Below are positions 22,778-45,838 of a stretch of 64,000 nt of DNA, one piece after another (positions within the stretch are counted from its first letter, which is position 1; every line of letters begins with the position of its first letter). The DNA comes from Mesostigma viride (taxonomy: Eukaryota; Streptophyta; Mesostigmatophyceae; Mesostigmatales; Mesostigmataceae), in assembly GCA_009746045.1 (NCBI GenBank), contig RPFO01000448.1, positions 3,684,373-3,748,372 of the forward strand. The letters are read 5' to 3'. The position numbers were made by a program, and so were the translations under genes. The notes beneath the pieces are model-generated. The model saw only the letters and a list, made by a program, of their open reading frames with translations. It made no database searches and was not told the origin of the DNA.

Positions 22778-22802
22778 GGCCGGGCCCACTTCGAATGTTC
22801 CG
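22778..22802 (+). repeat. Left terminal inverted repeat of the giant element
   Basis: The 25 bp are perfectly complementary to 45814-45838 and differ at one base from both ends of the 493-bp relative (TTCGAATG here, TTCAAATG there). AGCA precedes it. Confidence 0.9.
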
Positions 22803-23067
22803 CGGTCCAAGCCAAGTGTGTGACACTTTTCCTTCAATTTTGATGTAAAAATCTTGAATTTTGGCTTGCGAACGTATAAATTTCACGTAAATATTACAAT
22901 TTGTGGGTATTTATCTCATTGTAAGTCTCGTGTGACATAAAAACTTTACATTAGCGTGAAATTGCATTGTTTCATTGAAGAATATCATGGATACATTCGT
23001 CGCACTTGAGACGGAGTCGACTGAATTTACTAAAGACTCGTCCAACATAAAATAAAGTCTTCGAACG

Positions 23068-23600
23068 TCACTTCTTATTCTTGCTCCTTGCTTCTGCTTC
23101 CAATTTCTGCTCTTCTGTTTTGGACTTCTTCCTCTTTGGATCGATGGACATCGCAGGTGCCCACTTTGCCACATCATTCCAACTCTTTCCGTCCATCAGA
23201 GTCACCACCTTCTTCACATAGTCCAAAGGCATCCAGAACTTGCCCCGATGCAACTTTCCGCCCTCTGTCTCTTCTGGAAAAAACTTCATGCAAACGTCCC
23301 TCCATTTCCGATCGTATCCACCTACCTGCCCGTACAACTTCACCTCCTGTAACTTGGTATACTTTTGCTTTTCCCTACTCGCATTGGCCCTTCTCATGGT
23401 GTTCTCGGCCCACCCATCAATCCAGAAGCACTCCGGTGCTCCGTGTTTCTGTTCCCCGTCCATAAGTCTCATCCACAGCGTAGGCTTCTCATAATAAGGC
23501 TCTTGGCTCTGCGCATTCGCTTCCACCCCTTCAGACTGAGCAGTAAGTTTAGCTGCAGGACCGAAGCCCACCGCAGCGTTCGCCCGCACCACATCATTAC
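23068..23600 (-). CDS. Giant-element cargo gene, last exon
   Basis: The exon starts after the acceptor CGCGCAG (minus strand, 23601-23607) and ends at a stop at 23068-23070. It encodes about 176 residues with many aromatic and charged residues (..YYEKPTLWMRLMDGEQKHG.., ECFWIDGWAENTMRRANASR, GGYDRKWRDVCMKFF) and a Lys/Glu-rich tail, possibly a nuclear localisation signal. The composition and splice sites support a real exon. No family is recognised. The exon lies 265 bases from the left end of the element, so the gene reads outward. Confidence 0.6.
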
Positions 23601-23716
23601 CTGCGCGTAACCAATCGGCACATCAACGACGGACTAAAGTCAACGTAGATAGATTGCAAACGAATTAAAAAAAAAATTCAGGATACATGCCACGACCAAA
23701 ACAGCGATTTCCTCAC

Positions 23717-26074
23717 CCTTTGTTATTCCTTTCGGAGCTCGAGTAGCAGCTGTCTTGGGTCGAGACGAGCCGGAAGACTTGGAGGGCGCGGCAGGCTTCT
23801 TCCTCCCCTCAGACGTCGCTCTGCGAGTTGACCCTCCTGCCCCTCCACCCCTTGCCCTTCCATCACCCCTTCGCCTCCCTCCATCTTCCTCCTCCTCGTC
23901 GTCATCCCCGTCCTCCTCCTCCTCCCCCTCCTCCTCCTCCTCCTCCTCCTCCTCCTCCTCCTCCTCCTCCTCCTCCTCCTCCTCCTCCTCCTCCTCCTCC
24001 GCCTCCTCCTCCTCCTCCTCCTCCTCCTCCTCCTCCTCCCCCTCCTCCCCTCCTCCCCTCCTCCCCCTCCTCCCCCTCCTCCCCTCCTCCCCCTCCTCCT
24101 CCTCCTCCTCCTCGGAGGAGGATGATGATGACTCGACTGGCTGCCTTCGAAGCTCTTTCTTGGGATACTTTGAAACGCGCGTAGGCGCGGAAGGAGCGAC
24201 AGGCCGGGCAGAAGCGCCAGGCTCAGCTTCATCTTCGTCGTCCGAGATTTGAACAACTGCCTTTCGAAGCTTTTTGGAAGGGTGTGACTCCGGCTGCGGC
24301 TGGACAGACGGCCGCTGCCCACCCTTCCCTTTGTCCCGCGTCTTCTGCGGTGACGACTTCTCTCCCCCCTTAGACGTCTTCTGCGGTGACGACTTCTCTC
24401 CCCCCGTAGACGTCGCTCTGCGAGTCGACCCTCCTTCCTTTCCCTGTCCCTCGCCTCCCTCGTCCCCATCCGAATCTCCTTCCGCGTCATCCTCAGCCTT
24501 CCTCTTCTTCGCCAATGACGTCCACGAGACGTCAGGCATCTTCCCCATCCGAACCAGTAAGTCTTCGAAGCCATCCAATGACTTCTTTCCGCCAAAAACG
24601 ACCACGATGGGACGCAACTCCCAGAAAAACTGCGTCGCTAGCTCGATAAGCTTCCTGTGGTAACCGGAAGCTCGTTCGACAGTTGTCTTTTTTGGAGGAA
24701 CCATAAAGAGGTCATGGTCACCCCACCAGAAGTCCTTGAAGGACGTCCACTTGCGGCCGAACTCACCATCCAAATTCAGGATTCTACAGCACGGTAGTGG
24801 CGTCAGGCCATCGTCTTGCCTCGCGAAAGTGGATGGGAAGCCCTCACCGTCGCCCACCGCCACCTCCGCCGCCACCCTCCTCACAAATGCCTTCTTCCTG
24901 TCAGGGCCGCCTTTAGGGAGACTATGAGAAGAATACCAGACGGTCATCTTATCCCAGGAAATGCTGCGCCAGTTATACTCAATCGGCTCAGCACTTTTCT
25001 CTTCCACCTTCTCCCCCCCTTTCCCTGCAACTTTCTCCTTCGCCTCAACAACCGCCTCCTTCTTCCCTTCCCCTCCTTCCATCTTTTTTTGATAGTGGAG
25101 ATACAAGTCCTTGTCCAGAAGGCCGTGCGAACCCTTCATGCTGAAGTTCGGAGCGGTTTTGTCGAGGAGATCCACTAGATCGATTTTGCTATCCATCAGA
25201 TCCTTTCTCGGAATCCTTAGGTGATTGGCAAGACCTTCGGACTTTAAGAGGTAGGCGACATTGCGCGTGATGATGACGGCCTTCTCCCAAAATGCAAGGA
25301 ATCGATCGACGACGTCCTTGTTCCTTGGCATCCGCCCAAGTAGTCGACAGCCGAACACCTCTTCAAATAAGCGAGAAGCCTTGTACTCCATATCAGCCCC
25401 CCCTTACATTCGCCATCCAAGTCGGGCTTTTCCTGAAACTTAATAAGGATGAATTGGCGAACGCACTCAAGTACGTCCTTGGCCAACTCCACCAACTTTG
25501 ACAGCTTTTCGGGCCCAACCTCCCCACTCATGATGCATTCACACACAGCGTCCATCATCGGAAACGACGCCAGGTTCCTTACAGACGTCCAGGACACCTT
25601 TTGCCCCTTCTTGGTGCCCTCGGCGTTAGCGAACCGGCATCTGAGAGTCATAGTCTCCTCAGAAGCTGGTGTGACTGAATTCTCATCATCCGGCCTGGCC
25701 TTTGTGAGGCGCAGGAAGGTGTTCGCCAGAACTCGATTGTAATTTGAAATTTGGGAAGGTTGGGCCTTGTTTTTTTTCCGCTCGCCTTCTTCCTCCCTCA
25801 ACTCCCCCTTATCCTCCTTACTCCCCTCCAAACTCCCTTCCCTCCCGACTGATTGTTTGGTGGCCGGCAGGATGTACGCCAGCAGGTTCGTGTAATGGCC
25901 ATCGGGAATAAAATGCCCTTTGCCCTGCTTCACGACGCCGTGCAAGTACAGCCTGTTGTAATTCCAAACATCCAGAAGCGCCTGCCCAAGCGTCCGATCC
26001 GCTACCGCCTGATCTTCGGCATTGGCGCCCTTGGAGATTTCGAATAGGCGATCCAGCTTCTTCTTCCCAACCTC
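23717..26074 (-). CDS. Giant-element cargo gene, large exon with acidic tract
   Basis: The acceptor GTGACAG precedes EVGKKKLDRLFEISKGAN at 26074, and the donor GTGAGG follows 23717. The N-part (26074-25400) has a helical domain with WNYNRLYLHGVV and DGHYTNLLAYIL. The frame breaks at a run of seven C (plus strand, 25394-25400) and resumes with EEVFGCRLLGRMPRN. The C-part includes a conserved-looking block (WYSSHSLPKGGPDRKK, PLPCCRILNLDGEFGRKW, WWGDHDLFMVPPKK, FFWELRPIVVVFGGKK), then Ser/Lys-rich repeats and a long poly-Glu tract encoded by CTC repeats (23920-24120). No catalytic family is identified. The break at a homopolymer could be an assembly error. Confidence 0.6.
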
Positions 26075-26197
26075 CTGTCACGAACAGAGGAACGAAAAAT
26101 TGACACACAAGAACAATTCAAGGGTCGACTTGCAGCGTGACGTTATGAACGCACGGGAGCGCGAAAAATGGTCTTCAGCGCCGAAATCGGTAAGTTA

Positions 26198-26220
26198 GGG
26201 TCACTCTGCGAAACCACCCC
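26198..26220. repeat. Element palindrome, intron copy
   Basis: GGGTCACTCTGC followed by an imperfect complementary arm (CGAAACCACCCC), 123 nt upstream of the acceptor of exon 23717-26074. Confidence 0.6.
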
Positions 26221-26312
26221 AGAAATATGTCGGGATGATCTAGTTTGACTGCCATTGTCGTTTCTGTGTGCGACTTCCCGCATTTATAATGCATGATAAT
26301 GTTAATCATCCC

Positions 26313-28054
26313 ACGGTCCTAAATTTAGGACTTTGTCCTAAATCGTCCTAGTGGTCACTATAACCGAGGTACCGGGGGGGGGGGGTCACTATATGGACCG
26401 TACCCCATGTGGACCGTACCCGGCATGATGTACCCGACCCGTGGTACCGGCACATGGTACCCGGATTCCGTACCCGGGTACCGGGTATAATGGCGGGAAA
26501 GTAGGTACCTCGACCAAAAATATAACCGATTTTGGAGCGAAAAAGTGGGTGCGGGAATGAAGTGAGGTGGATATGGCGACCTGACAATCGTGGCCGGCGT
26601 TTTCACGTGCGTTTATCATTTCGGGCGCCCAGTAGCAAAAACGAAAGGTTGTTAGTTATGCTTAAAGGCTGTGAATATTTTCTGCGCAAGTTTTTATGTG
26701 TAGCGCTGTATCACAGCGGCACAACACAAATGGGTCGCAGATCGCCTGCTCGCGGAGGGTCGATTTTGGCACAAACATGTTAGTGTATTAGCAATGGTGG
26801 TGCGAATCAAGCCAGGAAATTTTTGTGGACGATTTTTATTATAGTCTGGAGTTTAGAAACGGAGTATTTGACATGGGAGCGCCTGGGCCGTGATATTCTT
26901 GCCCGATTTCCATTGTCGACCATGTTTTAGGGACGTTCAGGCTGGGCAGCGAGCGCACCTTATAGGTCTTCACTTTCGGCATTTCTTGGACCTAGAACGC
27001 AGCACAAGCGTGGTTTATATCATTGTCGAACCGGTTGGCCAGCTTTGGTGCGCTCAGCTCTCGGAAAGCTGACCTCGCTGCGGATTTCAGCGACTTTTTT
27101 GCAACCATCTGGAATGAGGCGACGTAAGTAGCAGGTAAGTGCCGGGTTGTCCTAGATCATGAGTGTAACTGGCAACGCTGTCGTGGTGTTTTGAGTCAGC
27201 CAGCTATGCCTAAAAAGAGGGGACGCTCTCTGTGCACATAACTGTCACACATAGTTGGTTTACGTCATACAATTTTTTACGTCTCTATCTTCGTCGTCCG
27301 CTGCAGCTAAAACACACATGCGTAAGAGCAGTTTTACTCATGTGTTAGTTATAAACCATGGTCCTATGGCCTGCAGTCGTTCAGGGTGTTCTCAGACAGT
27401 ATATACAGTATGGTTTACGTGTTACATGCACCCTGAATTCGCTCACAAAGCGTTGCATGTTAGCACAACGTTGTTTTGTAACTTGATTTGGCTGCATTCA
27501 TGTGTTAGTTGCAATGCAAATGCAATGTTTTTTCATCGCTGGGTGGTGGCCAGCATGTCCGTGATGTCAAAGAAGGTTTGGCATATGCTTAGAGAAAGTT
27601 TACCGCAAGGGGTGGGCCATGTTCAAGCCGGGCAACCTCAGCAACCATGCAACCCTATATTGCATTACCTGCACCATCTGTGACACCGTTAATCACGCGT
27701 ATATATAGAGGCAGCCACAGCAGGGTATGGCCTTGTTATACGCTGCCCCGCCATCCCAAGGCCTCGTAGGGTCCCCTAGCGCTTGTAAGATGCTCAAGGG
27801 ACCGTGTGGATAGCATGGTCATGCGTTGACAATAATTGGTCCTAATGGTCCTAAAACCCACATTTTGGCCAAATTCGCGCTTTGAGGTCTGGCAGGTGGC
27901 AGGGCCCATTCATGCACTAAATGTAATTATTTGACCCCAGGTTTTTGATAGAAACTAAAAAAGTGTGTTATCTGTCATGGGCACGAATGCCAGGGTCAAA
28001 TTTTAATGTTTGCATGTATATTTTTTAATTCCACTTGGTCCTAAATTTAGGACT
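26313..28054. mobile_element. Possible insertion in a cargo-gene intron, ends GGTCCTAAATTTAGGAC
   Basis: The palindrome GGTCCTAAATTTAGGAC occurs at about 26315 and again at about 28036, each preceded by a similar TTAAT..CCAC stretch. Extra GGTCCTA copies lie inside (26336, 27838, 27848). The intervening 1.7 kb has no homology to the element's other introns and enlarges this intron to 2.1 kb. A block at 26360-26510 is dense in GTACCC/GGTAC motifs. No TSD could be fixed, so this is a tentative DNA-transposon call. Confidence 0.35.
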
Positions 28055-28185
28055 TTTACTGGGAAGATGGACATAAAGGAAGACTTTTGACATGGTCACT
28101 CCACAGTGCGACCCTTACTCGACATAACACGACGAAGTGGTGGAACTGCAGCGTCACCATTGCCATAGATAGAACTACCACTTAC

Positions 28186-31038
28186 AGATATTTCCGGGAA
28201 ATTTTTACACTCGTCCCAATTTGGAAGAAGGTCGGCCCCCCGAAGCAGAATGACGTTCGTTCCCCCGTACCCAGTATGGAATTGTTCCATAAGGGATGAG
28301 AAAAGTTTAGCCGCCGCGGCACTGTCCTTCGCGTTCTCAGACGCTGCCCCCCCTTCACACATTAGTTTCTTAACATGTGTCACACCGGGCGTCCATTCCC
28401 CCTCCAATTGCTTGAAAGACTTTAAACCCTTGAAATAGTGGTTTCCGTCGACCACCGCATATCGAAGAACGAGATATTCGCCATCAGGATGTTCTTCGTG
28501 AAATCTTGGGTCGAATGCCTTTAACCCCTAAATGGTCTTGCTGCCGATTTTCCGCCAAAAATCGAGTTCCAGCCGATGCATCGGCCCCTTCTCGGGGGAC
28601 CAGATGCCGCGAAATCTATTGAGAATTAGGAAAAGTTTAGCTGAGAAGATTGAAAGTTTATAATTTTCCTCACAGCATGGTACTAGGGTTTGCATACTTC
28701 TGACAAAGTTATAGAGGTGTTCTGGCCGGTCAAAGTACAAGGGGTCAGGGTACTTTTTCACGTACAACGTGCATTCCGGAAAACGACGACCTGGCCATGG
28801 CGGCTTGCGCCCACGCATGGCATTTGCGTTTTCGTTCGAATTTTCTGACCAAACTTAGGATATTGATTTTATACGTCCTAAATATCATACAGCCCAATTT
28901 TTGGTTCGCGGGAATGCCATTTAATAGGTGTCGGCAGCGTTCTTGCTGGAAAAAACTGCGATCAGGCCGGACGATAGAAACGTTGACAGCAATACCTTTC
29001 CGGCGTATTTTAAAGGATATATCGGTTTATTTGTACTTTTTATGATACATAATAGTCGTAAACGTGCAAGGGTGGCCAGAAATCGCCGAATCCAGCGACC
29101 ATGCTGCACAACTTTGGTGTGCCGAAATGCGCCATTTTGGGCCACCGCCTGGGCCAAGGTAACGCCATCCATGCCTGGTAAAGCTTAAGCATCGTTCTCC
29201 TATCGATGTTTGACGTTTATATGTACGTTCTAGTTTGTGTAGCACATTCTTTTTGCATTATTCATGCTCTTTCTTGACCCTGGCCTGGCCCCTTTCTAAA
29301 ACACCCTTCTTAGATGCTTCCCTCAGTCAGTTGACCTGCCACAGGGTGATGGTGATAAGTTTTAGAGGCTGCATGGGTTTGAATACCTCCATATATGTTT
29401 GTTATACATTTCCCATACACATATTGCATGAGTGTGAGGCAGTTGGCTGGTCTCTGTGGCATCATCAAGCACGTAACTGGTGAGTAAAAGCTTCCCATTG
29501 ACAGCATGTGCCACCAGGTGTGCTGGCCATCACCTGGCAAGCTATAGCAGCTTAGGCCTAGTTTATCCTTGCTAGGGCAGGCTGAAATAGGCTCAACATC
29601 ACTAGTTTGTTGGTGGCTGCCTCCTAGAATGCATGCCTTGCGTAGGGTATCCGTACCACGTTACCTACGTGCATGGACAAGGTAGCACCTGCACATAGGT
29701 GCCATGTAAGGGCAGTGTGATGATGCAGTTATGTTTCCCCATCATTGTGGAAGGGAAATGTATTGTTTGGCATGGTTGGTGGCCATATTAGTAGGTAGTA
29801 TGCCCACCCCTACCCCCTTGGTTGCTTTTTACCAACGGTACCCCTAAGGGCTGTGCTGGGTGTAACTGCTGGTATACCCACCCAAATGATGACCCCAATG
29901 GCTCAAACTGTTCAGCAACTAATTGTTTATCATCCCTGAAGTGGTAGGTGCCTAGGTCTTATAACATAATTCAAAATGCACATTCTACCAAAAATGAAAA
30001 CGCGCGTCTTGACCCCCCTGACTTTGACGGCAGTTATATATGGCCTACCCTGCATATATGTGAGGTTGTGATATACCAACCCGAAGGGCAACTCATGGAC
30101 ATGCTTGCCCCCCAAGGACAGCCATTGGATATGGGTAGGTTGGATGGCATCTGGTTTGCAAAATTGTGAAGATCCAGCCGATTTATCGGCAGGATCTCAG
30201 ACCATTTAGGGGTTAAGGAGGTCTGGCTTATTAGGCTGAAGACCTCCCTTGGTTGAAAATCAAAGGGCAGAACGTCGTCTTGTTCCCCGACTCGTGCATA
30301 GGTCCGGAACTCAACACCTCTCTTGAGGAAAGAAGCGGTGGACTTGGTTCCAAGATACTTCTCAATCTCCTTGTCGGACAAGGGGCGAAAGTAACGCGAG
30401 CCCACGAACTCCGCGTCAGTCCTAGCGCCATGGCATTTTTTCAGCCAATCCCGGTAAGGGCCGGTGGACGTGATGTGTTTGGCGAAGAGGCTTGGCTTGG
30501 TTTCCGCAAGCGCTTGAAAGGCGAACTGCCACACAGGGATGCACACCTTAAAATGCAAACTGTTTGTCTTTGCATTCAGCAAGATGCGCCCGTTCTCCCT
30601 GAACACCTCATCGCTTAGCAACCGCTGCCTCATGTTGTCAGGCAAAATCAGCCCGTTGACGGTGTGAATGCGCATGCTATTGCAACCGGTATCGATGAAG
30701 TCACTCGGTCGAATCCAACGGGATTCCCGCACAGCATTCGCGTCCCGAATGGCTTTGTCCCTGATCTCCTTCTCGGAGTCCACGGTCGTTGCCATCTTCC
30801 AATCTTTGATGATCGGCTCCTTGTCCACCTTTCCACTACTCGTCAGGATCCCCTCCTTGAAGAGCTTTGAAAGTGCTTTCAGAAGCTCAAGAAAAGGGGA
30901 GAAGGTAGGCCACTTTAATATATCCGACGCCGGCGCCTTGCCCCTGGCTTCGACGTAGTTAAGCATCTCCTTGACGAGTGCAAAAACGGCATCATTGCCG
31001 GCCAACCTTCCGTCACCGTCTCCTTCCCCCTCGGCACC
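28186..31038 (-). CDS. Giant-element cargo gene, exon with a ParB/sulfiredoxin-like motif, split by a TTAA element
   Basis: Coding parts are 30217-31038 and 28186-28524. The acceptor CGTTCAG precedes AEGEGDGDGRLAGNDAV, and the donor GTAAGTGG follows ..FPEIS. The 1688-bp element between them inserted at TTAA, and the frame is in phase on both sides. Across the joint the protein has QPREVFSLISQTSL, then FDPRFHEEHPDGEY and RYAVVDGNHYFKGLKSF. A variable D-rich loop followed by VVDGNHR/Y..AL is reminiscent of the ParB/Srx fold used by nucleases and DNA-binding proteins. This is a weak motif match, not an assignment. The upstream half has SRYFRPLSDKEIEKYLGTK. Confidence 0.6.
28525..30212. mobile_element. 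Non-autonomous TTAA element (piggyBac- or Kolobok-like), family 1
   Basis: The flanks are TTAA (28521-28524 and 30213-30216). The ends are inverted repeats CCCCTAAATGGTCT, followed inside both by GCCGAT..ATCGGC palindromes. It is 1688 bp and has no transposase. Removing it with one TTAA leaves the cargo exon frame continuous. TTAA duplications occur in piggyBac and Kolobok, and the short TIR does not decide between them. Confidence 0.85.
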
Positions 31039-31157
31039 CTGAACGAAGGCATTGACGAACATGAGACAAGAAAGCAATAAATAGTTAAACGTATGCATAT
31101 AGTCCGCGAGCGTAGGAAAATCTCAGAGTAGGGTGCTAAGAACACAGAAGGTAAAAA

Positions 31158-31180
31158 GGGTCACTCCACGGAGCTACCCC
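31158..31180. repeat. Element palindrome, intron copy
   Basis: GGGTCACTCCACGGAGCTACCCC. A homologous copy sits at 31390-31411 in the duplicated neighbouring intron. Both lie 119 nt upstream of their acceptors. Confidence 0.65.
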
Positions 31181-31207
31181 TCTGAATCTAAATCACCAAA
31201 AACGCAC

Positions 31208-31270
31208 CGCTTCCTTTTCTCCCGCCTTCTTCCCCTTCTTTCCTTTTCCGCCTTTCTCCCCCTCGCCACC
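31208..31270 (-). CDS. Cargo gene, 21-codon Gly/Lys exon
   Basis: It has acceptor CCTCCAG and donor GTGCGTTTTT, and encodes a Gly/Glu/Lys-only peptide. The introns on both sides (31039-31207 and 31271-31441) are clearly homologous over most of their length, including a palindrome copy each, so this exon and one intron arose by tandem duplication. Confidence 0.55.
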
Positions 31271-31441
31271 CTGGAGGAAGGCATTGACAAGGATGAGACA
31301 GGAAAACAATAAATAGTTTAACGTTTGCAAATAGTCGGCGTGCAGACAAAAAATTCCGAATAGGGTGCAAAGAACGGAGAAGGTAAAAAGGTTCACTCCA
31401 CAGAGCTACCCCTCTAAATCTACAATTCCGCAAAAACGCAC

Positions 31442-31959
31442 CTCTTCCTTTTCTCCCGCCTTCTTCCCCTTCTTTCCCTTCCCGCCCTTCTCCCCCCGGC
31501 CGCGTCATCCTCCCCCTTATCCTTCCCCTTCTCCTTTTTATCCGCATCCCTCTTCTTTTTGGAATCTTTTGCCTGACCCTCAAGCAGCTTCGCCCGTTCA
31601 CGATCCCTTCTCTTGAGATCCCACTTCATGAACTTGATGACCTTGTCCACCTTCGCCTCCGTGTACGCCTTTGGTTTCCACTTGAACTTTTCGGTGCCCT
31701 TGGACTTGACTTGGTTGACAAAATCATAGGCCAGGTCACCGTTGAAGGTGTCGGCGCCTTGCATTGCGAAATCGGCCGCCGCCTCAACGCGTAGTTGGGT
31801 GAGATACTTGCGAAACTCCCCGGCACCCATCGTAACATCCTTAGGGGGATTGCCTAGGATGAGTTCGCCAATATCACAGGCAGTCTGCACCTTCTTCCTT
31901 CTGGCAATAAGCTTTAGGTAAGCTGCTTGGAGTGTCGTCGTCGCCCTTTTTTTAGCCTG
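31442..31959 (-). CDS. Cargo gene, helical exon with basic tail
   Basis: The acceptor is ACCTTCCAG and the donor GTGCGTTTTT. The exon encodes about 172 residues: QAKKRATTTLQAAYLKLIAR, CDIGELILGNPPKDVTMGAG, EFRKYLTQLRVEAAADFAMQ, then a Lys/Arg-rich tail. It is probably alpha-helical. No family is recognised. Confidence 0.55.
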
Positions 31960-32090
31960 CTGGAAGGTATACCAACAACACACAACATACACATGAAGCG
32001 AAATGTATTAAGAAGAATAATCTGCACTCTGGCATCCTAGCTCTGCAGCGCGACCTTCAGCGTTATAAACTTAAAAAACATTGCACAAAC

Positions 32091-32578
32091 CTTTGCCTTC
32101 CCCTTCCCCTTCGGAGTTGGCTCGGGCTCATTTTCTTCCTCCTCCTCCTCCTCCTCGTGCTCCTCCTCCTCTTCCTCCTCGTCCACCTCCTGCTCCTTCT
32201 CCTCCTCTTCCTTCTCGTCCACCTCCTGCATGAAAAAAAAATAATAATAATTCAGACGATGACATAAAAAAAACGAGCATTAATTTTGTTTTAACGTTGC
32301 TCTGCGGAGCGACCCCAACCCTGGGCTTGAACAGTAAAATGAACCAAATTTCCTACCTCTACGTTCTCCGTCCCCATCCCTTCGACCTCTTCGAAATGTT
32401 GATCGTCGTCCTGCAAGACAAAACGTGCGTTCAGATAAATATACAAAGTCAGTCAAAACAGGAAGTATTTCTTGAATATCCTATCTTCACAAATCGACCC
32501 GAACCTTTAGCGGCATTTGCTTACCTCCGGGTTCCACGCTGAAGGACTTTGTCCCTCAAAACATGGAATGTCACCCTC
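32091..32578 (-). CDS. Cargo gene, three small acidic exons
   Basis: Exons at 32525-32578, 32357-32410 and 32091-32225 each have an AG acceptor and a GTAAG, GTAGG or GTTTG donor, and encode Glu/Asp-rich linkers ending in PTPKGKGKAK. Phase is kept through all three. The low-complexity acidic character recurs across this protein and suggests a nuclear, chromatin- or nucleic-acid-associated scaffold, which is inference. Confidence 0.5.
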
Positions 32579-32695
32579 CTGGCGGGAAGTAGAGCAAGAA
32601 ATGCGTTCATCGTTAGTAACAATTTTCAACAAAAGAAATACACAACACTAATCTAAACGGACTGAATAAAAATGTACACAAATGTCAATAATTAC

Positions 32696-33771: not shown

Positions 33772-33813
33772 GTCCACAAAACGAAACAAAAGCATAATCG
33801 GAAAAAAAGTTTA

Positions 33814-35847: not shown

Positions 35848-36007
35848 CTGCGGCAAATAAGGAAAAACAAATAGACCAATGTCGGATGAAGAAAGTGTAA
35901 ATTCGCATCAGCGTGAGGGGTGGCGCTGCAGCGCTACCCTAAGAAGAAACAAGGATGAAATCCCATTCAGGTTTGGGAAAAAAAAAATCGAAGATGTAAC
36001 TTTTATA

Positions 36008-36525
36008 AACGTATCTGGAAAGGGTGACTCGGCAGCGCGACCTTACAACACAAATGTGATTGAATAACGTATCTTGGAAAGGTCACTCGGACGCGCTACC
36101 CTACAAACAAAATGTTATTGAATAACGTATCTGGAAAGGGTGACTCTGCAGCACTACCCTACAAACAAAATGTTATTGAATAACGTATCTGGAAAGGGTG
36201 ACTCTGCAACGCGACCCTACAACCAAAATGTGATTGAATAACGTATCTTGGAAAGGTGACTCTGCAGCGCTACCCTACAAACAAAATGTTATTGAATAAC
36301 GTATCCGGAAAGGGTGACTCTGCATCGCGACCCTACAACCAAAATGTGATTGAATAACGTATCTTGGAAAGGTGACTCTGCAGCGCGACCCTACAAACAA
36401 AATGTTATTGAATAACGTATCTTGGAAAGGTGACTCTGCAGCGCGACCCTACCAACAAAATGTTATTGAATAACGCATCTTGGAAAGGTGACTCTGCAGC
36501 GCGACCCTACAAACACTGAATGGAA
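36008..36525. repeat. 58-bp tandem array, nine copies, each holding the palindrome
   Basis: Unit starts are at 36008, 36066, 36124, 36182, 36240, 36298, 36356, 36414 and 36472. Each unit runs from AACGTATC through GGTGACTCTGCAGCGCGACC to an AT-rich spacer ending TTGAAT. Copies differ at a few positions, mostly in the right arm of the palindrome. The array lies 160 bp upstream of the 5'-most cargo exon found. Two further single copies follow at 36540-36563 and 36597-36621. Confidence 0.9.
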
Positions 36526-36659
36526 GTTTGCATTGTGAGGGGGTCACTCTGCAGCGCGACCTTACAAACAAAGACTGCGACATTGCGCAAGGGTAGGGGT
36601 CACTCTGCAGAGCGACCCTACCCAAAAACAATACTAACCACTCCCCAAAAAAATCACGC

Positions 36660-38765
36660 ATGGATGGTGGTGGTGGGTGGCTGGCAGGCATGGATGGTGG
36701 TGGTGGGTGGCTGGCACGCATGGATGGTGGTGGTGGGTGGCTGGCACGCATGGATGGTGGTGGTGGGTGGCTGGCACGCATGGATGGTGGTGGTGGGGTG
36801 CTGGCATGCATGGATGATGGTGGTGGGGTGCTGGCATGCATGGATGGTGGTGGTGGGTGGCTGGCACGCATGGATGGTGGTGGTGGGTGGCTGGCACGCA
36901 TGGATGGTGGTGGTGGGTGGCTGGCACGCATGGATGGTGGTGGTGGGGTGCTGGCATGCATGGATGGTGGTGGTGGGTGGCTGGCACGCATGGATGGTGG
37001 TGGTGGGTGGCTGGCACGCATGGATGGTGGTGGTGGGGTGCTGGCATGCATGGATGATGGTGGTGGGGTGCTGGCATGCATGGATGGTGGTGGTGGGTGG
37101 CTGGCACGCATGGATGGTGGTGGTGGGGTGCTGGCATGCATGGATGGTGGTGGTGGGTGGCTGGCACGCATGGATGTGGTGGTGGGTGGCTGGCATGCAT
37201 GGATGGTGGTGGTGGGGTGCTGGCACGCATGGATGGTGGTGGTGGGGTGCTGGCATGCATGGATGATGGTGGTGGGGTGCTGGCATGCATGGATGGTGGT
37301 GGTGGGTGGCTGGCATGCATGGATGATGGTGGTGGGGTGCTGGCATGCATGGATGGTGGTGGTGGGTGGCTGGCATGCATGGATGATGGTGGTGGGTGGC
37401 TGGCATGCATGGATGGTGGTGGTGGGTGGCTGGCATGCATGGATGGTGGTGGTGGGTGGCTGGCACGCATGGATGGTGGTGGTGGGTGGCTGGCACGCAT
37501 GGATGGTGGTGGTGGGTGGCTGGCACGCATGGATGGTGGTGGTGGGTGGCTGGCACGCATGGATGGTGGTGGTGGGTGGCTGGCACGCATGGATGGTGGT
37601 GGTGGGTGGCTGGCACGCATGGATGGTGGTGGGGTGCTGGCACGCATGGATGGTGGTGGTGGGTGCTGGCACGCATGGATGATGGTGGTGGGTGGCTGGC
37701 ATGCATGGATGGTGGTGGTGGGGTGCTGGCACGCATGGATGGTGGTGGTGGGGTGCTGGCATGCATGGATGATGGTGGTGGGGTGCTGGCATGCATGGAT
37801 GGTGGTGGTGGGTGGCTGGCACGCATGGATGGTGGTGGTGGGTGGCTGGCACGCATGGATGGTGGTGGTGGGTGGCTGGCATGCATGGATGGTGGTGGTG
37901 GGTGGCTGGCACGCATGGATGGTGGTGGTGGGTGGCTGGCACGCATGGATGTGGTGGTGGGTGGCTGGCACGCATGGATGGTGGTGGTGGGTGGCTGGCA
38001 CGCATGGATGGTGGTGGTGGGTGCTGGCACGCATGGATGGTGGTGGTGGGGTGCTGGCATGCATGGATGATGGTGGTGGGGTGCTGGCATGCATGGATGG
38101 TGGTGGTGGGTGGCTGGCACGCATGGATGGTGGTGGTGGGTGCTGGCATGCATGGATGGTGGTGGTGGGTGGCTGGCACGCATGGATGGTGGTGGTGGGT
38201 GGCTGGCACGCATGGATGGTGGTGGTGGGTGCTGGCATGCATGGATGATGGTGGTGGGGTGCTGGCATGCATGGATGGTGGTGGTGGGTGGCTGGCACGC
38301 ATGGATGGTGGTGGTGGGGTGCTGGCATGCATGGATGGTGGTGGTGGGTGGCTGGCACGCATGGATGATGGTGGTGGGTGGCTGGCATGCATGGATGGTG
38401 GTGGTGGGGTGCTGGCACGCATGGATGGTGGTGGTGGGTGCTGGCATGCATGGATGATGGTGGTGGGTGCTGGCATGCATGGATGGTGGTGGTGGGGTGC
38501 TGGCACGCATGGATGGTGGTGGTGGGGTGCTGGCATGCATGGATGGTGGTGGTGGGTGGCTGGCACGCATGGATGGTGGTGGTGGGTGGCTGGCACGCAT
38601 GGATGGTGGTGGTGGGGTGCTGGCATGCATGGATGATGGTGGTGGGGTGCTGGCATGCATGGATGGTGGTGGTGGGTGGCTGGCACGCATGGATGGTGGT
38701 GGTGGGTGGCTGGCACGCATGGATGATGGTGGTGGGGTGCTGGCATGCATGGATGGTGGTGGTGG
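36660..38765. repeat. 30-bp GT-rich minisatellite, about 70 copies
   Basis: The unit is CATGGATGGTGGTGGTGGG plus a short GCTGGCACG/GCTGGCATG end, with three or four recurring variants and occasional one-base length changes. The very long open frames here on both strands are by-products of the 30-bp period. The G-rich strand has many GGTGG runs. It separates the cargo gene from the transposase gene. Confidence 0.95.
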
Positions 38766-39262
38766 ACATATCGCTGGCTGAGGACCAACACGAAAAAAGA
38801 AGCCATATCGCTGGCTGAGGACCAACACGAAAAAAGAAAACATATCGCTGGCTGACGACCAACACGAAAAAAGAAAACATATCGCTGGCTGACGACCAAC
38901 ACGAAAAAAGAAAACATTTAGCTGGCTTAGGACCAACACGAAAAAAGAAAACATTTAGCTGGCAGAGGACCAATACGAAAAAATACTCTGGTCGCTCGCT
39001 GAGGACCAACCCTTAAAAAGAAGCCGTGTCGCTGGCTGAGGACCAACACGAAAAAAGAAAACATATTGCTGGCTGAGGACCAACCCTAAAAAAGAAGGCA
39101 TATCGCTGGCTGAGGACCAACACGAAAAAAGAAGCCATGTCGCTGGCTGAGGACCAACCCTTAAAAAGAAGGCATATCGCTGGCCGAGAACCAACCAGAA
39201 AAAAGAAGTCATGTCGCTGGCTGAGGACCAACACGAAAAAACAAGCCATATCGCTGGCTGAG
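38766..39262. repeat. 37-bp minisatellite, about 13 copies
   Basis: The unit contains TCGCTGGCTGAGGACCAAC followed by an A-rich end (ACGAAAAAAGAAG). It starts exactly where the 30-bp array stops, and copies vary by 10-20 percent. Long minus-strand frames through it are period artefacts. Confidence 0.9.
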
Positions 39263-39799
39263 GACTACAAAAGGGCATCATAGACGCCACCCTGCTCGCG
39301 CGAGTAAGTAGGGGTTCGTTGCACATTTACCTGCACGCATAAATCAGGAAGGGGGAAAAACGGCATTGAACAGGACCACGATTAGAATTGGGCTAGCTAT
39401 AAACTAACCGGACCATTTGAAGGCATAGCAACAAACATCACGCTCGACATCAAAAAAGACTGCGCTGTTGATGCACCTTTTTCATTATGGCGGCGAGTTG
39501 AGGCGGCATTTGTCTCACCATCTTCAGGCAGCGATGATTATTACAGAAAACAGCTATGGCGGCAGCAGTGGTGGTGCGGTTTTCGAAACCCAACAGCTGT
39601 TGTGACCGATCGTCCGTGGAGCGACCCCTGTCAACGGCCCAGCGTAACCGGCGTTCAGGACGGAAAACGTGGCATGCTCGCCATTCGGCCAACGAGGCGA
39701 AACGCGGCGCTAGATTATTCTTATTGACAAACCGCGCATGCGGATTGGACGACTCACAATGTGACGTAATCCAAGCGTCGGTCTTCACGGTCCCGCAGG
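39263..39799. other. Unique stretch between the arrays and the transposase promoter
   Basis: Two overlapping frames (39450-39788 on -, 39556-39804 on +) have ordinary composition and no motif. A degenerate palindrome copy (CGTCCGTGGAGCGACCCC) lies near 39610. I cannot decide whether a first exon of either gene is here. Confidence 0.3.
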
Positions 39800-39809
39800 T
39801 ATAAAAAGG
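39800..39809 (+). promoter_or_regulatory. Candidate TATA box for the transposase gene
   Basis: TATAAAAAGG lies in a GC-neutral context. It would place a transcript start near 39830 and a 5' UTR intron ending at the acceptor TTCTGCAG (40919). This is inferred from sequence only. Confidence 0.35.
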
Positions 39810-40009
39810 AACAACACGCAGCCAATTTGACGCTACAATCGGGATGTTTGGATTCGGGCGTCACCATGCTGCCGTGGATAACGACGTCCGCGGTTCGATT
39901 CTAGCGTGAGCCCGGTGCTTTTTTGCACGTCGTCTGAGAGATCATCTGTCATATTACCACCAGTCGTCACTCTGCAAAGCGACGTGCCTACTGCCACGTG
40001 GTATGGCAA

Positions 40010-40610
40010 AAATTTCGAATGCAGAACTTTTGGGGTATACAAATAAATATATTCATGAATCGGGTATAGTAAATGTATGGGGATATATACTAACATGCTA
40101 GCCAATATATTTATACTTTCTGCTGTCCATATGCTTATTATTATGATTATTGTTATGAATATGATATATGTTCTTTCTAATATTTGTTAAATATATTTTC
40201 CTATTTACTGCTAACTTACTGTACTAGTTTTTTATATAAATGACTAGTACTAGATAGATTAATGCCATGAATACAAATTTAAAATATTGATTAAATTTTA
40301 TGACAATATTACATATATTTATGGACATCACTCTTTTTTTCATACAATAAGTAGAAAATATTTAGTATTAGAGATAGCTAGTCTGTCCAGTTCATATTTC
40401 TTCTATCTAAACAATAATGATTGTAATAGAAATAGTACTAAATACTAATTAAAACTATATAAATACCAATAAATACTTTCCATATTTCTGCTACATAATT
40501 AAACAATAATGATTAAAACAATTATGTTCAATATTCAATTTCATTTAGTAGAATCTTAAATAATTCCATGAATTAATTCACGTATTTTCCTGTCTTGGTG
40601 TGATCATCCA
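40010..40610. other. AT-rich non-coding stretch
   Basis: About 600 bases are strongly AT-rich, with short repeats such as AAATATT, ACTAGTAC and AATAATGATT. There is no coding frame. It contrasts with the GC-rich DNA on both sides and lies within the presumed 5' region of the transposase gene. Confidence 0.7.
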
Positions 40611-40685
40611 GGTACCTCGATCGGCAACGACACGACACGCCTGAAAAATGAGCCGGGAAGGTGTGTTTCCAATGATGCAAATCTT

Positions 40686-40705
40686 GGTCGCGCTGCAGCG
40701 CGACC
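40686..40705. repeat. Element palindrome, perfect copy
   Basis: GGTCGCGCTGCAGCGCGACC is a perfect 20-bp palindrome. An imperfect copy follows at 40757-40777 and another at 40851-40873, the last lying 46 nt upstream of the TTCTGCAG acceptor at 40919. Confidence 0.85.
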
Positions 40706-41061
40706 TCTTCTCAGTTCCATACGAAAAGGCCTTAAAACTTGTGTGTAACTTCGCAAGGGTCGCGCTGCAGAGCTACCAAAAATTTCATGAAGTTTGACTT
40801 TCTCTATATTTGCTTCGCAATTGAGATTCTTTTGTATCTGCGAAGAAGGTGGGGTCATTTCGCGGAGTGACCCTGCTAATATGTAAATTTTTCCGTGAAT
40901 TTCTTTTTGTTTCTGCAGCACGGGAACGGGTGTTTCTTTCGCCAACCTCCTCCTCCTTGCGTGGCGGCTTTGCTAATCGACTCAATGCCCACAACTTGAG
41001 CATCGGGACACCGACGCCCCTTGCAGCGGATCTGAAAAACAGCTCGAAACGAAATTTCGGG

Positions 41062-42443
41062 AATGAGAACCGCAGCACCTCGCCCGCCTCAGGAAGCCAG
41101 CGAAAAGGCCTGGCCAGTACGCCGAGAAGAAGTCTGTTGTGGGGACTCATCTTGCTGATGAGGCGTACAACGTAGTTCATCACATGAGGAATGAATCTAC
41201 CAAGCGGGCCTCTTTTGAGGAGATTGTTGATGGCTTCAATAAGAGGGCTGACGAGCTCAAGGCGGAGCATTTTGACATTCCGGTGGCCAAGCTTTTTGAT
41301 GAGCAGCGGCTTGCACAACTGTCGAGGTCTTGGGTGGCTCGGCTGATCGCCCTTTTTGACGACCTGTCGAAATCCGACCATGACAGAGACGTCAAGATCA
41401 TTTTGGTGTCAACTCTTTTTTGTGGGGACGACATCGAGAAGGAGTTTTCGGCGGCAGAGTTGGAGAGAATGACGGGTGTCCCCGCGAAGACCATTCTCAA
41501 AGTTCGGGCGATCAGAAAGCAACAGAAGATGGAGTTCCTGACGCGTGCGCTGGCGCGAAAGAAGAGGAAGTTGCCCCAATTTGTAATCGAGTCGATCGCG
41601 CAGGCTTGGACTGATGAGGAGAACTCGCGCGCTTCGCCCCAAGAGAGGGATACCATAAAGACGCACGAACGAGTTGGCAATCGTGCGATTTTGGTTGGTG
41701 TCCAAGGGGCCTACTTCTACCTCACCTCGAAGGAGGACATATATCTCAAGTTTTTAGCGGAGCACACGTACTGGGACAAGAAAAGTCCGCAGTATGAGAA
41801 GGATGTCGGCATCCATGTCGGATATACGACTTTCTGCAAGTACGCCCCCAAAACCGTCAAGGGGAAGTGGAAGGAGAGAAACGTGTGCGCCTGTGAGACG
41901 CATACGGTCATGCAGTCGAAGGTAGCGGCATGGACTAGGTACTGCAAGGCGAAGCACGGCAAGAACTGCAAGTGCGGCGACGAGTGTGAGGGATGTTTAA
42001 GGGCGAGATTGCCTGACGGCACGTGCGGGATGTTCGAAAGCCTGCACACGACCGAATGGGTGAAGCACTTCCATTGCCGTGTGGCGGAGGCGGATGGGGG
42101 AAGTGAGCTGGGGGGTGGGGCAAACTCGGCGAGAAACGAAGAGGAGGAAGGGGACAATAATGTGACGGAAGATGAATGGCAGGGGCAAGACCTTGACGAT
42201 CTTGAAATAAATGAGAGGATCGTGGAGGATGAGGAAGGGGTGCCAAGGGTAGGGGACCCATCCATGGAGGAGGGGTCTGTCTTTCGCATTCTGAAGAGGG
42301 CATGTATGGAGAACTCGTGTCCCGAGTCCCGGTGTGGCATCAAAGACTGGGTGTTGTGTGACCGGGACAAGAATTCAACAGAACTACTAAATTGGTTCAG
42401 ATACGTGAAGAAGGAGGTAGTGGTTTCCCGACCGGCAGGGGAG
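41062..42443 (+). CDS. Giant-element transposase-like protein, exon 1
   Basis: The frame is open from 41062, and the first in-frame ATG is 41185 (MRNESTKRASFEEIVDGFNK), so the true start is uncertain and an upstream exon after the acceptor at 40919 is possible. It encodes about 420 residues: a helical N-part (..HDRDVKIILVSTLFCGDDIE..), a basic segment (LARKKRKLPQFVIESIAQAW), then a Cys/His-rich domain (VCACETHTVMQSKV.., CKAKHGKNCKCGDECEGCL, HFHC) that may bind zinc and DNA, an acidic linker, and CPESRCGIKDWVLCDRDK. The donor is GTAAGC at 42444. The next exon carries the presumed catalytic core. Confidence 0.7.
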
Positions 42444-42478
42444 GTAAGCGTGTTTGGATTTTGTGACGCAATTATTTC

Positions 42479-42503
42479 GCAGCGTCATTCTGCAGCGCGA
42501 TGT
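42479..42503. repeat. Element palindrome, transposase intron 1
   Basis: GCGTCATTCTGCAGCGCGATG core, 73 nt upstream of the acceptor at 42575. Confidence 0.65.
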
Positions 42504-42575
42504 TAATTTAAAGGCTTTTCTGATACTTTATGAATATGTTACTTGCAAATTTACTTCATCCCTTGGTTAAAACAG

Positions 42576-43349
42576 GACGCGACCGATCGGCGGGTCCCGG
42601 AGAAGGTCAAGCGGCCCGTACAGGAAACGATGAGGTCAACGCCCGCGCAGCTGAGGCTGGCGATTATCGAGAGTTGGGAGGACTTTACCAACCACTGCTT
42701 TACGTCATGGTGGCAGTCGGCAACGATCAAGGACCGGGAGAGGAACATGACTGAGGGGGATGTGCTCGTGCATGGAGATTGGGCCGAGAATTACGAGAAC
42801 AACAACTACGTCCAACTGCAGTCGCAGTACTTTCACAAGACGAGCTTTGTCCTCATGCCCATGATCGTGCGATATTTGCACAATGGTGCGATGGCAAAGC
42901 GAACGTTCTTTTTTCTCGGGGAAGCCAAGATGAAGCGGGGAGAGCGGGCGCTCGTCTACGCGCTGAGGACAATCATGGAAACCCTGCGCGGACTTGGTGT
43001 GGGGGTGAAGAGGATGTTCATGTGCTCTGACAACTGCTCATCCCAGTTCAAGTCCAAGTACGTGGTTAACGCCGTCTTCCGCCTCCTCATGCAGGATCCC
43101 GACTTGGAATCCTTCGAGTACCACTACTTGGGTGAGCAGCACGGGAAGGGGGAGGTGGATGGTCAGGGAGCGAAGTTCAAGTGCATTGTGAGGAACATGC
43201 AATGCATTCCTGAGAACCAGGGCATCGTTACAGGGCGCCAGATCGTCAAGTACATGCGGGACAGCTGGGAAGGAGGCAAAACCACGAGCAGGGAGTCGGC
43301 CCGCGCTCGGGCAGAGGGCGTCCACCGTCATTTCTTTCATTTTCCTGAG
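42576..43349 (+). CDS. Giant-element transposase-like protein, exon 2 (catalytic core)
   Basis: The acceptor AAAACAG ends at 42575 and phase is kept (..PAGE|DATDRR..). Motifs: LVHGDWAENYENNNYVQLQS (Asp at 42777), RMFMCSDNCSSQFKSKYVV (Asp at 43029) and LGEQHGKGEVDGQGAKFKC (Asp at 43158), giving D-84-D-43-D. An RNase H-like strand with DxAENY, then SDxCxxQF, then HGKGxxDGxG is a signature I associate with an uncharacterised group of eukaryotic transposase-like proteins. I cannot verify this here. It should act on the 25-bp TIRs. The donor is GTGCGA at 43350. No stop or frameshift is present. Confidence 0.75.
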
Positions 43350-43498
43350 GTGCGAAACTCAATTTTTCTTGAACTTGATTGAGGTATCTCTGCAGAGTGA
43401 CCTTTTGCCCATTTGCATTTTATTATTTGATAATGCTAAAAGAACTGGTATGAATTAGCGTCTTATATAGTGAAAAATGCATGCAAAGCACTTTCAAA

Positions 43499-43521
43499 GG
43501 GGTATCTCTGCAGAGTGACCC
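43499..43521. repeat. Element palindrome, transposase intron 2
   Basis: GGTATCTCTGCAGAGTGACC core, 66 nt upstream of the acceptor at 43586. A second, nearly identical copy lies at 43382-43403 just after the donor, so this 237-bp intron holds two. Confidence 0.75.
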
Positions 43522-43586
43522 TTCATGTGTACTTGATCTATTGACACATACCAACTTTCCGTTTCTGACATTCTCCCTCATTGCAG

Positions 43587-44330
43587 GACCTCGACTCCGG
43601 CGCCCGTATGATACCGACGCGTGTCGAGGCCATCAAGCAAGCGCACTGGTGGCGCCTGGACAAGTCTGACCCGGGGCTCCTGATGATGAGGCGTTTTTCG
43701 TGCTACTGCCCAGCCTGCCTAGCTAACAGGTGGGAGGAGTGCCGGACCGAGTGGACACATATCGAGGAATTTAACGATGAGGGCCAAACGATGAAAACTT
43801 TCCGCCTGATGCCGCCAACGCAGCCCATACCTCCGGTTCGCCAGCTGACGCGGGCGGAACTGCTGAAGGATCAAAGGGATGCCATTGGCAGGCAGATGCG
43901 CATGTATGATTACATCGCAGTTCCGTCAGACAGAGAGGACGTGAACCACAATTCCGCCCACCCTTTTTGGGTGATGCAGGTGGTGAGGGAGGCCTCAGTG
44001 CTGGAGAAGGAGGAGGTTAGGTGGGTTGAGGGACAAAACGGACGGCAGAAGGAGATTTTCTTGCCCGGCCACGCCGTTCTGGCGGTTCGGCTGTGGAAGC
44101 GAGATATGCATGACCCCCTGCATTTTACTCTGGATTTGGCTGATTGGCCGGAGTCCCGCCCAGCCGACCTGGTCGATTGCTATCTGTGCATCTCCGCTGC
44201 TCTTCCGCTCCAGTGCATGGTCCTTGGCAACCAAAGGCAAGCCTACGTTGATATGAGCAAGGAGCTTGACGCGTGGCTAACCGCTCTTGTACGCAACCAG
44301 CAAGCCCCGGAGGGGCTGCCACCGGCTTAA
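43587..44330 (+). CDS. Giant-element transposase-like protein, exon 3 (C-terminal domain)
   Basis: The acceptor CATTGCAG ends at 43586 and the stop TAA is at 44328-44330. It encodes about 247 residues with a Cys cluster (RRFSCYCPACLANRWEECRT), then IAVPSDREDVNHNSAHPFWV and LPGHAVLAVRLWKRDM, followed by a predicted folded C-terminus ending EGLPPA. The Cys cluster after the catalytic core recalls the C-terminal zinc motif of the same transposase-like group. The exon is intact. A palindrome copy lies 7 bases after the stop (44337-44360). Confidence 0.7.
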   Translation, partial: DLDSGARMIPTRVEAIKQAHWWRLDKSDPGLLMMRRFSCYCPACLANRWEECRTEWTHIEEFNDEGQTMKTFRLMPPTQPIPPVRQLTRAELLKDQRDAIGRQMRMYDYIAVPSDREDVNHNSAHPFWVMQVVREASVLEKEEVRWVEGQNGRQKEIFLPGHAVLAVRLWKRDMHDPLHFTLDLADWPESRPADLVDCYLCISAALPLQCMVLGNQRQAYVDMSKELDAWLTALVRNQQAPEGLPPA

Positions 44331-44926
44331 ACTTTCGGGGACGCTCCGCAGCGCCACCCCTACGGATCTTTAAGCCTGGGCTTTATTCGCCTACGGTTGG
44401 GACAGTGTTTATTCGTGTTTATATATTTTTGGAGAACATTTTTTTGTTTTTTCATATGTTACATTAGATGACAAGTGGCTGGGAACATTGTTAGCCTCGG
44501 TAGTGACAAATTTTAGTATATTTCCGTGTCGAAATGGCGAGTATTTTATTTAACTTGTACAATAATTATTTCGAATTACAAATTTATAATTTGGTTTGAC
44601 CTAAAAATCATGTCGTCACTCAAATATAGTAGTTGCTGTGTAGGACTTTCCGTCTGCAAATTGGTTCGTACTAATTTCGAATGTCACAACAATGTTACTG
44701 TACTAAGGCCTGTTTGGTAGATGTCTTAAAACACAAATTCGCTCCGGAAGTGCCAAAGTACCTTGCTTGTAACCGGACTAGTTACGAATTGTGATTGGAA
44801 GGTTGTCCCCTACAACCACAAGGAATAGAGGGGACGCTCCGCAGCGCCACCCATACGACAGTCCGGACCGGGCTTTGCTGAAATAATTTTCTCACTCGCA
44901 ACTTAGCCATCAAACTCACTTTTACG
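44331..44926. other. Spacer between transposase and small ORF
   Basis: It contains two near-identical palindrome variants, at 44337-44360 and 44830-44852 (GGGGACGCTCCGCAGCGCCA core). AT-rich sequence lies between, with ATTAGATG and ATTTTAG tracts and no coding frame. The second copy is 75 bp upstream of the next ATG, so it may mark the promoter or 5' UTR of that ORF. Confidence 0.55.
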
Positions 44927-45400
44927 ATGGAGCGCGCCGATGTTTTTGGTTCGCAGCATACATATGTGCATGTCGATAAAAAGGAGCATGCGGCCAACAT
45001 GTATGTTGAAATCGACTCCCCCCCCCACGACTTCCCACGCTCCCTGCGGGGACCGTTTGGAGGTTGGGGTTCAGGTGTCATTGCGTTCGGAAACGGGATG
45101 ATCGACCTGATGCCCCCAGATTCAGATTTGGCGCCTGCCCCCCGTGTTCCGGGTAAGGCCAGGGTGGTGCAATGCCTCCAGAATGAGGGCACGGAAATTT
45201 CGCCCAATGTCTCGGCTGTGCGCCTCCGGGCTGAGGCCCAGCATGAGTTCTTGAATGCGGCGGAAATAGGTGGGGCCGTATGGGCCCCCAAACAATTTTC
45301 CAACGAGCCTCCAAATTTCGTGGGGGACTTGTACAAGGGAGCGTACAAGTTTCGTGACATTGAGATCGATGGATGGGGGTCATTTCTCCAGGAAAAGTGA
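44927..45400 (+). CDS. Small giant-element ORF, unknown (157 aa)
   Basis: The ATG at 44927 (context ACGATGGAG) opens MERADVFGSQHTYVHVDKKE, and the frame ends with TGA at 45398-45400. It has no intron. The sequence contains EIDSPPHDFPRSLRGPFGGW, NVSAVRLRAEAQHEFLNAAE and a C-terminal YKFRDIEIDGWGSF. Ordinary amino-acid usage and the position between the transposase and the right TIR suggest a real accessory gene. No signal peptide or membrane segment is evident. Its family is not recognised. Confidence 0.5.
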   Translation: MERADVFGSQHTYVHVDKKEHAANMYVEIDSPPHDFPRSLRGPFGGWGSGVIAFGNGMIDLMPPDSDLAPAPRVPGKARVVQCLQNEGTEISPNVSAVRLRAEAQHEFLNAAEIGGAVWAPKQFSNEPPNFVGDLYKGAYKFRDIEIDGWGSFLQEK

Positions 45401-45813
45401 ATGCCGGTCCCATTTGGCAAATATAATCGATGATTAATTCCATGCAACATTTTGCGTTGGTCAAATGTGTAAATTTGCATTATTCATCGATTCAATAAAA
45501 TTATGGGGGTGGGTATACCCACCATTTGATGGTTGAAAGTACTACTAGCTTCGTCGATTAACTCTTCTCAACATGGTCCTCTAGTCGACTAGGATTGTAC
45601 CAATCCATCAGGGTATCGAGAAACTTGTTATGCCGAAACACTCCGGTCGAAAATTTCGTGCCACCTGCAGGCAATCAAAAAGCGCACGCGGACCGACGGG
45701 AAAGAGTAGTTAGTCACGAAATTAAAAAAACGACAAAAAGTGTCACACGCGGCCCGGCGGGAAAGAGTAGTTTGTTACGAAGTTAAAAAAACGACGAAAA
45801 GTGTCACACTTTT
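45401..45813. other. Right subterminal region of the giant element
   Basis: Non-coding. It includes two tandem copies of a block containing GCGGCCCGGCGGGAAAGAGTAG-like sequence (about 45690 and 45750), each followed by TACGAA(A/G)TTAAAAAAACGAC. These direct repeats next to the TIR are candidate transposase sites. Confidence 0.5.
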
Positions 45814-45838
45814 CGGAACATTCGAAGTGGGCCCGGCC
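45814..45838 (-). repeat. Right terminal inverted repeat of the giant element
   Basis: The 25 bp are complementary to 22778-22802 and are followed by the second AGCA copy. Inside it lies AAAAGTGTCACACTTTT, a near palindrome also found beside the left end of the 493-bp relative. Confidence 0.9.

Follow-up and report, generated by a model that had tools for sequence, protein, structure and literature searches.

Polinton/Maverick elements carry a protein-primed DNA polymerase B and a retroviral-type integrase and produce a 6-bp target site duplication; Helitrons encode a Rep/helicase and possess neither inverted ends nor a duplication. VANDAL and other Mutator-like elements have a Mutator-type transposase and duplications of about 9 bp, the Academ transposase type corresponds to DUF6589 in Pfam, and the transposases of Sola contain a DDD triad. 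The element described here lies within 64,000 bp of the genome of the unicellular streptophyte alga Mesostigma viride (contig RPFO01000448.1), the whole analysed stretch being referred to as the window. Like the giant eukaryotic DNA transposons treated in a review (Polinton/Maverick, Helitron, and Teratorn; PMC6431247), it has a size near or above 20 kb and genes besides the transposase. It differs from them in its plain inverted ends with a 4-bp duplication, and no DNA polymerase, Rep/helicase or other family was recognized above the Pfam cut-off in 15 of its open reading frames (ORFs).

Two further systems offer points of comparison. As described in PMC5735166, VANC21 from Arabidopsis binds short motifs within its own element, namely in introns and in intergenic and terminal non-coding DNA; the motifs often occur in tandem repeats, binding is accompanied by a loss of methylation, and the variable parts of VANC proteins contain tandem peptide motifs, their exon structures being varied as well. 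For Sola2, PMC3627910 gives AT-rich 4-bp duplications and, in one element, a transposase of 888 amino acids (aa). The M. viride element as a whole is reasonably probably an autonomous transposon of the cut-and-paste type, about 19.6 kb long, that has recently been active in this species, is of unassigned lineage and is equipped with element-specific binding sites. Such a size is unusual among eukaryotic cut-and-paste elements, and so young an element in a unicellular streptophyte alga would constitute a natural, probably active system.

Ends, target sites and copies of the element

The two ends of the element are perfect 25-bp terminal inverted repeats (25/25 bp, starting GGCCGGGCCC), bordered on both sides by AGCA (Table 1). 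Joined with one AGCA, the flanks of the window copy match another locus (L030), where 172 of 188 columns across the join are identical, AGCA is present once and no insertion occurs; this uninterrupted target lies in a related repeat. An earlier note on this DNA had reported the inverted ends, the AGCA duplication and a mobile 23-kb DNA transposon, and had proposed a search for other copies with the terminal 200 bp and for empty sites. The ends and the duplication proved to be real, and both searches were successful. As for the size, the window copy measures 23,061 bp as inserted, but two nested insertions (Table 1) inflate it, and its core amounts to 19.6 kb.

The search of the genome with the first 200 bp yielded 397 first-look candidates and that with the last 200 bp yielded 386; in each case 40 were scored, the window's own included. 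All 40 left ends match over 200/200 bases at 99-100%, and all 40 right ends over 200/200 bases at 100%. At the 30 loci from the right-end search the right-end flanks are mutually distinct (30/30), which implies at least 30 separate insertions, and the numbers of first-look candidates suggest that the true number is higher. Ten copies, additional to the window copy, have both ends on one contig and in the top-40 lists, a selection biased toward intact copies; at least two more same-contig pairs (C526 and C557) lie outside the ten. These paired copies are 20.9 to 33.3 kb long. The combination typical of DDE/D cut-and-paste elements, i.e., inverted ends and a duplication of constant length, was found among them in ten of ten (intact 25-bp ends) and nine of ten (identical 4-bp duplications), and the nine duplications are all unlike (GAGA, TTTA, AAAA, ATAC, TTGT, AATA, TGCT, TGCC, and TTAC).

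The remaining paired copy, on C442 (L049, L050), has unmatched flanks (CGGT vs GTTT). On the left it has the flank of the copy on C1468 (L004), on the right the flank of the copy on C1994 (L011); right flanks starting with CGGT occur in L012 and L033, and a left flank finishing with GTTT in L002. The simplest account would be a misjoin between near-identical copies, with recombination as the alternative. The right-end flanks of C72, C87, and C113 are found again on other contigs as well. Together with C442, the recurring flanks imply that the assembly contains redundant, perhaps misjoined contigs and that raw copy counts are inflated. Such irregularities are also what a segmental duplication or an assembly artefact in place of a transposon would leave behind. 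This origin is refuted for the element as such by the nine unlike duplications, the 30 distinct right-end flanks and the uninterrupted target site, and its probability is negligible. With its many copies, fixed ends, 4-bp duplications, uninterrupted site, predicted RNase H-like domain and a miniature relative, the element is almost certainly a mobile transposon, as the earlier note had held.

Four other complete copies, all from the ten paired ones (C1106, C1424, C1413, and C87), were read at full length, which makes five with the window copy. Over the 3.8-kb transposase segment, three of the five show no deviation from the majority, the window copy deviates in a single indel column, and C1413 differs by 5 substitutions and 5 indel columns. 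The near-identity of the copies suggests, in our reading, that the element spread in a very recent burst.

The miniature, 493 bp long and located outside the element in the window (Table 1), had already been taken as a small relative whose ends are mobile. A genome search with it produced 556 first-look candidates, of which the 40 that were scored all cover the full length at about 100%, and identical 4-bp duplications flank it at 10/10 loci checked, the window's own included, in agreement with that view. The miniature is thus young and multi-copy. No gene was noted in its 493 bp, so its transposase must act in trans; judging by the shared ends, the large element would be the obvious source. 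A near-palindrome, GTGTGACAC / GTGTCACAC, occurs near the ends of both the element and the miniature (positions 22818, 45740, 45801, 48412, and 48827) and is a candidate transposase binding site. One further GTGTCACAC is present at 28377.

The transposase and its relationships

The transposase comprises 1018 aa encoded by four exons, not three as noted earlier, the short first one being listed in Table 1. Its frame is open in four of the five copies read; in the window copy it is one base off from the others, with a stop after residue 89. Across the scored residues, the protein shows complete identity to a jgi/Mesvir1 protein (gene model P0002), and the annotation of the Mesostigma genome is affected, as the transposase stands there under that gene model.

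Sequence comparison placed the protein in no described family. A Pfam scan of four transposase relatives gave no match above the cut-off, nor did a PDB sequence search with the transposase give any match. Two word-based searches, covering 5.8 billion sequences and limited in sensitivity, found relatives only in Mesostigma and in one metagenome protein; in viral contigs, 32 stretches fit a pattern and none of them encodes a relative. P0003 and P0004 represent related families. Pfam scans of 19 single ORFs (15 in the element and 4 outside) likewise remained without a match above the cut-off. The sub-threshold names included RecQ_Zn_bind (E 0.015, in an ORF from exon K) and TniQ (0.11), and the catalytic region showed a weak sub-threshold similarity to DUF7869 (E 0.026 with an exon ORF and 0.12 with the whole protein).

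The structure model of the catalytic exon is of moderate confidence (predicted local distance difference test score, pLDDT, of 61, and below 50 at the third catalytic residue). Its secondary structure elements follow the order beta1-beta2-beta3-alpha-beta4-alpha-beta5-alpha, with an Asp after beta1, another after beta4 and a Glu/Asp just ahead of the next helix. The predicted secondary structure thereby shows the arrangement that defines RNase H-like DDE/D transposases in PMC5718144, i.e., Asp at beta1, Asp at beta4 and Glu/Asp by the following helix. RNases H were the top Foldseek matches of the model (26 chains at E <= 0.001), and domains of PIWI type and of retroviral integrases also align to it; all these fold matches are weak, supporting evidence. 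The absence of transposases such as Hermes from the 50 listed structural-alignment rows is no evidence either way. In a viral structure library, the top matches were mainly of RNase H type, and the search gave no sign of a viral element. The transposase is predicted, with moderate confidence, to carry an RNase H-like DDE/D core. Most likely, the transposase would bind the 25-bp ends, excise the element and insert it with a 4-bp stagger, and it would also move the 493-bp miniature in trans.

Polinton/Maverick is excluded by the 4-bp duplications, with no polymerase or integrase family among the 15 element ORFs scanned, and Helitron by the presence of inverted ends and duplications, with no Rep/helicase family among the same ORFs. 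VANDAL and other Mutator-like elements are excluded by the 4-bp duplications and the lack of a Pfam match above the cut-off. The Pfam scan of the transposase relatives, of limited sensitivity, revealed no DUF6589 match that would point to Academ.

It is rather unlikely, though worth weighing, that the element belongs to a named superfamily with 4-bp duplications, Sola being the first candidate, as an oversized member whose transposase has diverged beyond recognition. The inverted ends and the long transposase are Sola-like, the third catalytic residue is possibly an Asp (HGKGEVDG), in line with the DDD triad of Sola, and the faint resemblance to DUF7869 might indicate some named superfamily. 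To our knowledge, however, no Sola element contains a large divergent gene or dispersed palindromes. The 4-bp duplications of the element and the miniature agree with those of Sola2, but they include G+C-rich ones such as TGCC, whereas Sola2 duplications are AT-rich (in PMC3627910); neither this difference, drawn from descriptions and not from sequences, nor the lack of a family match above the cut-off is a direct test. No description of the element was found in the open-licence literature, a search that leaves subscription papers mostly outside. The family had been left unassigned in the earlier note, and the database searches support this within their reach: the element is regarded as a giant DDE/D transposon with inverted ends and of unassigned lineage, possibly a new superfamily, with Sola compared by description only.

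The large divergent gene and the dispersed palindromes

A second large gene runs on the opposite strand, divergently from the transposase, with tandem arrays between the two, much as the earlier note had outlined. Its exon structure was predicted from splice sites alone (GT-AG introns), the start codon not being located, and as drawn it has at least 12 exons; the many-exon gene therefore stands, but not the count of at least 13 given for it earlier. The gene is found at the same place in all five copies read and may therefore contribute to the working of the element. Its frames vary: exons A and I are unbroken in five of five copies, exon D in two, and exons K plus L in three, while exon J is unbroken in all four of the additional copies. 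Exon H is free of in-frame stops in three copies, but in four of the five its length puts exon I out of frame, and the remaining copy contains stops. Exons H and I have near-duplicate ends. Among 7,995 candidates scored (proteins of about 742-2362 aa; query residues 1-880 of the J-K-L part), no homologue reached E <= 0.001.

The differences between copies are clustered. Across the segments that were binned, three in number, 69 of the 119 gap-free variable columns fall into only three 250-bp bins (33468-33718, 31718-31968, and 24028-24278); all three bins lie in large-gene exons, and one overlaps a GAG-type repeat. Frame-changing indels and block replacements characterize the variable stretches of this gene, and the transposase half is almost identical. 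The clustering suggests local conversion, error-prone repair, or assembly trouble.

The large gene might be a captured passenger without a role in the element. Frames broken in several copies, low-complexity stretches and the missing homologue would fit this, but the constant position in all five copies and the presence of the element's own palindromes in its introns argue against it, and such an origin seems improbable. The label "cargo" from the earlier note may consequently be the wrong word, although the second large gene is confirmed; most likely the gene is part of the machinery.

These palindromes are the other distinctive feature. The 22-bp motif GGGTCACTCTGCAGAGTGACCC was first seen while reading introns. 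A scan of the window allowing up to 6 mismatches located 28 sites, of which 27 belong to the element and one to the miniature (at 48451), with none in the other 40,446 bases. Among 30 control scans with shuffled motifs, 28 found no site, one found one and one found two. All 27 element sites lie outside the drawn exons and the nested insertions, coding sequence taking up 11,084 of the 19,600 core bases; the eight that sit in the 58-bp array do not count as independent. The four other copies hold 25 to 28 palindromes each in a similar order, and none occurs in 90,710 flank bases of 68 loci (some overlapping each other or the window). A weight matrix derived from the palindrome sites themselves yielded 37 matches at >=8 bits: 34 in the element, two in the miniature (the second at 48649), and one outside (8.2 bits). 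Two weak matrix matches (12.7 bits) fall within exons. Palindromes are present in nine of 14 introns at <=6 mismatches and in 11 of 14 by weight matrix (>=16 bits), where only introns D-E, E-F, and K-L are without one.

A short motif concentrated in the introns, intergenic DNA and tandem repeats of an element, next to a second gene with repeat-rich variable parts, recalls VANDAL and its VANC protein. In outline, the large gene resembles VANC in its repeat-rich exons, in the near-duplicate ends of exons H and I, and in the palindrome array; tandem arrays lie upstream of it. On the other hand, the proteins share no family match, the motif is a 22-bp palindrome, and its binding is proposed by analogy, so that the parallel serves as a working analogy and not as homology. 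Following it, the palindromes could be bound by an element-encoded protein, for which the chances appear about even. Most likely, such a protein would bind the palindromes in introns, intergenic DNA and the 58-bp array, and would regulate the non-coding DNA of the element or protect it against silencing, as VANC does in VANDAL.

Two other roles can be envisaged for the palindromes, both of low probability. They might act in RNA, as intron hairpins that aid splicing, or merely accumulate as a tiny repeat that tolerates non-coding sites only. Their presence in nine to 11 of the 14 introns is compatible with this, and the inverted repeats could pair within a transcript; yet the 58-bp array, intergenic DNA and the miniature, which has no gene, contain them too, three introns are without one, other DNA examined has none at the same stringency, and an Rfam scan of the window gave no match. 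Alternatively, they might be bound by the transposase and serve transposition instead of regulation. The one palindrome that the 493-bp miniature retains, at a distance of 68 bp from its left end, would agree with such a function, but most palindromes are kilobases away from the ends, and the subterminal regions hold another motif (GTGTGACAC and its complement).

If the palindromes are indeed bound by the element's own protein, sequence-specific anti-silencing of transposons has arisen more than once; the motif table makes this idea directly testable. A broader proposal is put forward more tentatively, namely that the element represents a new DDE/D superfamily among eukaryotic transposons, in which giant size is the default and which has its own sequence-specific anti-silencing or self-regulation (a large orphan protein and dozens of palindromic binding sites distributed over the introns and spacers). 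If this is true, the VANC/VANDAL strategy would have been invented independently in a unicellular relative of land plants.

Feature coordinates, nested insertions and neighbouring DNA

Table 1. Positions of the element and associated features in the window
Feature	Position	Strand	Remarks
Whole element as inserted	22778..45838		23,061 bp; 19,600 bp minus two nested insertions
Left 25-bp terminal inverted repeat	22778..22802	+	identical in 10/10 paired copies
Right 25-bp terminal inverted repeat	45814..45838	-	identical in 10/10 paired copies
Target site duplication AGCA, left	22774..22777		uninterrupted site in L030
Target site duplication AGCA, right	45839..45842		uninterrupted site in L030
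Transposase exon 1	40648..40660	+	P0002 N-terminus
Transposase exon 2, Cys/His-rich part	40919..42443	+	frame broken in window copy, open in 4 others read
Transposase exon 3, predicted RNase H-like catalytic domain	42576..43349	+	D581, D665, D708/E706 of P0002
Transposase exon 4	43587..44330	+	
Small ORF, 157 aa	44927..45400	+	intact in 3/5 copies
Large divergent gene, at least 12 exons	23068..35847	-	drawn by splice sites, GT-AG introns
Large-gene exons, first six	35847-34375, 34215-34153, 33983-33912, 33761-32696, 32578-32525, 32410-32357	-	
Large-gene exons, next three	32225-32091, 31959-31442, 31270-31208	-	
Large-gene exons, last three	31038-28186, 26074-23717, 23600-23068	-	nested element interrupts 31038-28186
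58-bp tandem array, 8.8 units	36008..36515		8 palindromes at <=6 mismatches, 9 by weight matrix
30-bp and 37-bp tandem arrays	36655..39265		between two divergent genes
27 dispersed 22-bp palindromes GGGTCACTCTGCAGAGTGACCC	26198..44852		<=6 mismatches, all non-coding
Nested insertion, 1,773 bp	26300..28072		window copy only, among five read
Nested TTAA-flanked element, 1,688 bp, ends CCCCTAAATGGTCT	28525..30212		within large-gene exon
Miniature, 493 bp	48383..48875		element's ends with one base changed; flanked by CCCT

Both nested insertions are missing from the corresponding place in all four other copies read. The ends of the 1,773-bp insertion include the self-complementary GTCCTAAATTTAGGAC. 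The TTAA-flanked element represents a second, probably recent transposon family: a 97.9% alike copy is located elsewhere in C87, and another borders the same place in L031. L031 and C87 share a flank and correspond to one locus on two contigs. An ORF adjoining the element (46442-47863) contains a CCHC-like knuckle, CLRCFQRGHDRDHC, and by eye resembles a retroelement gag; part of it is found again in the flank of the copy at L008.
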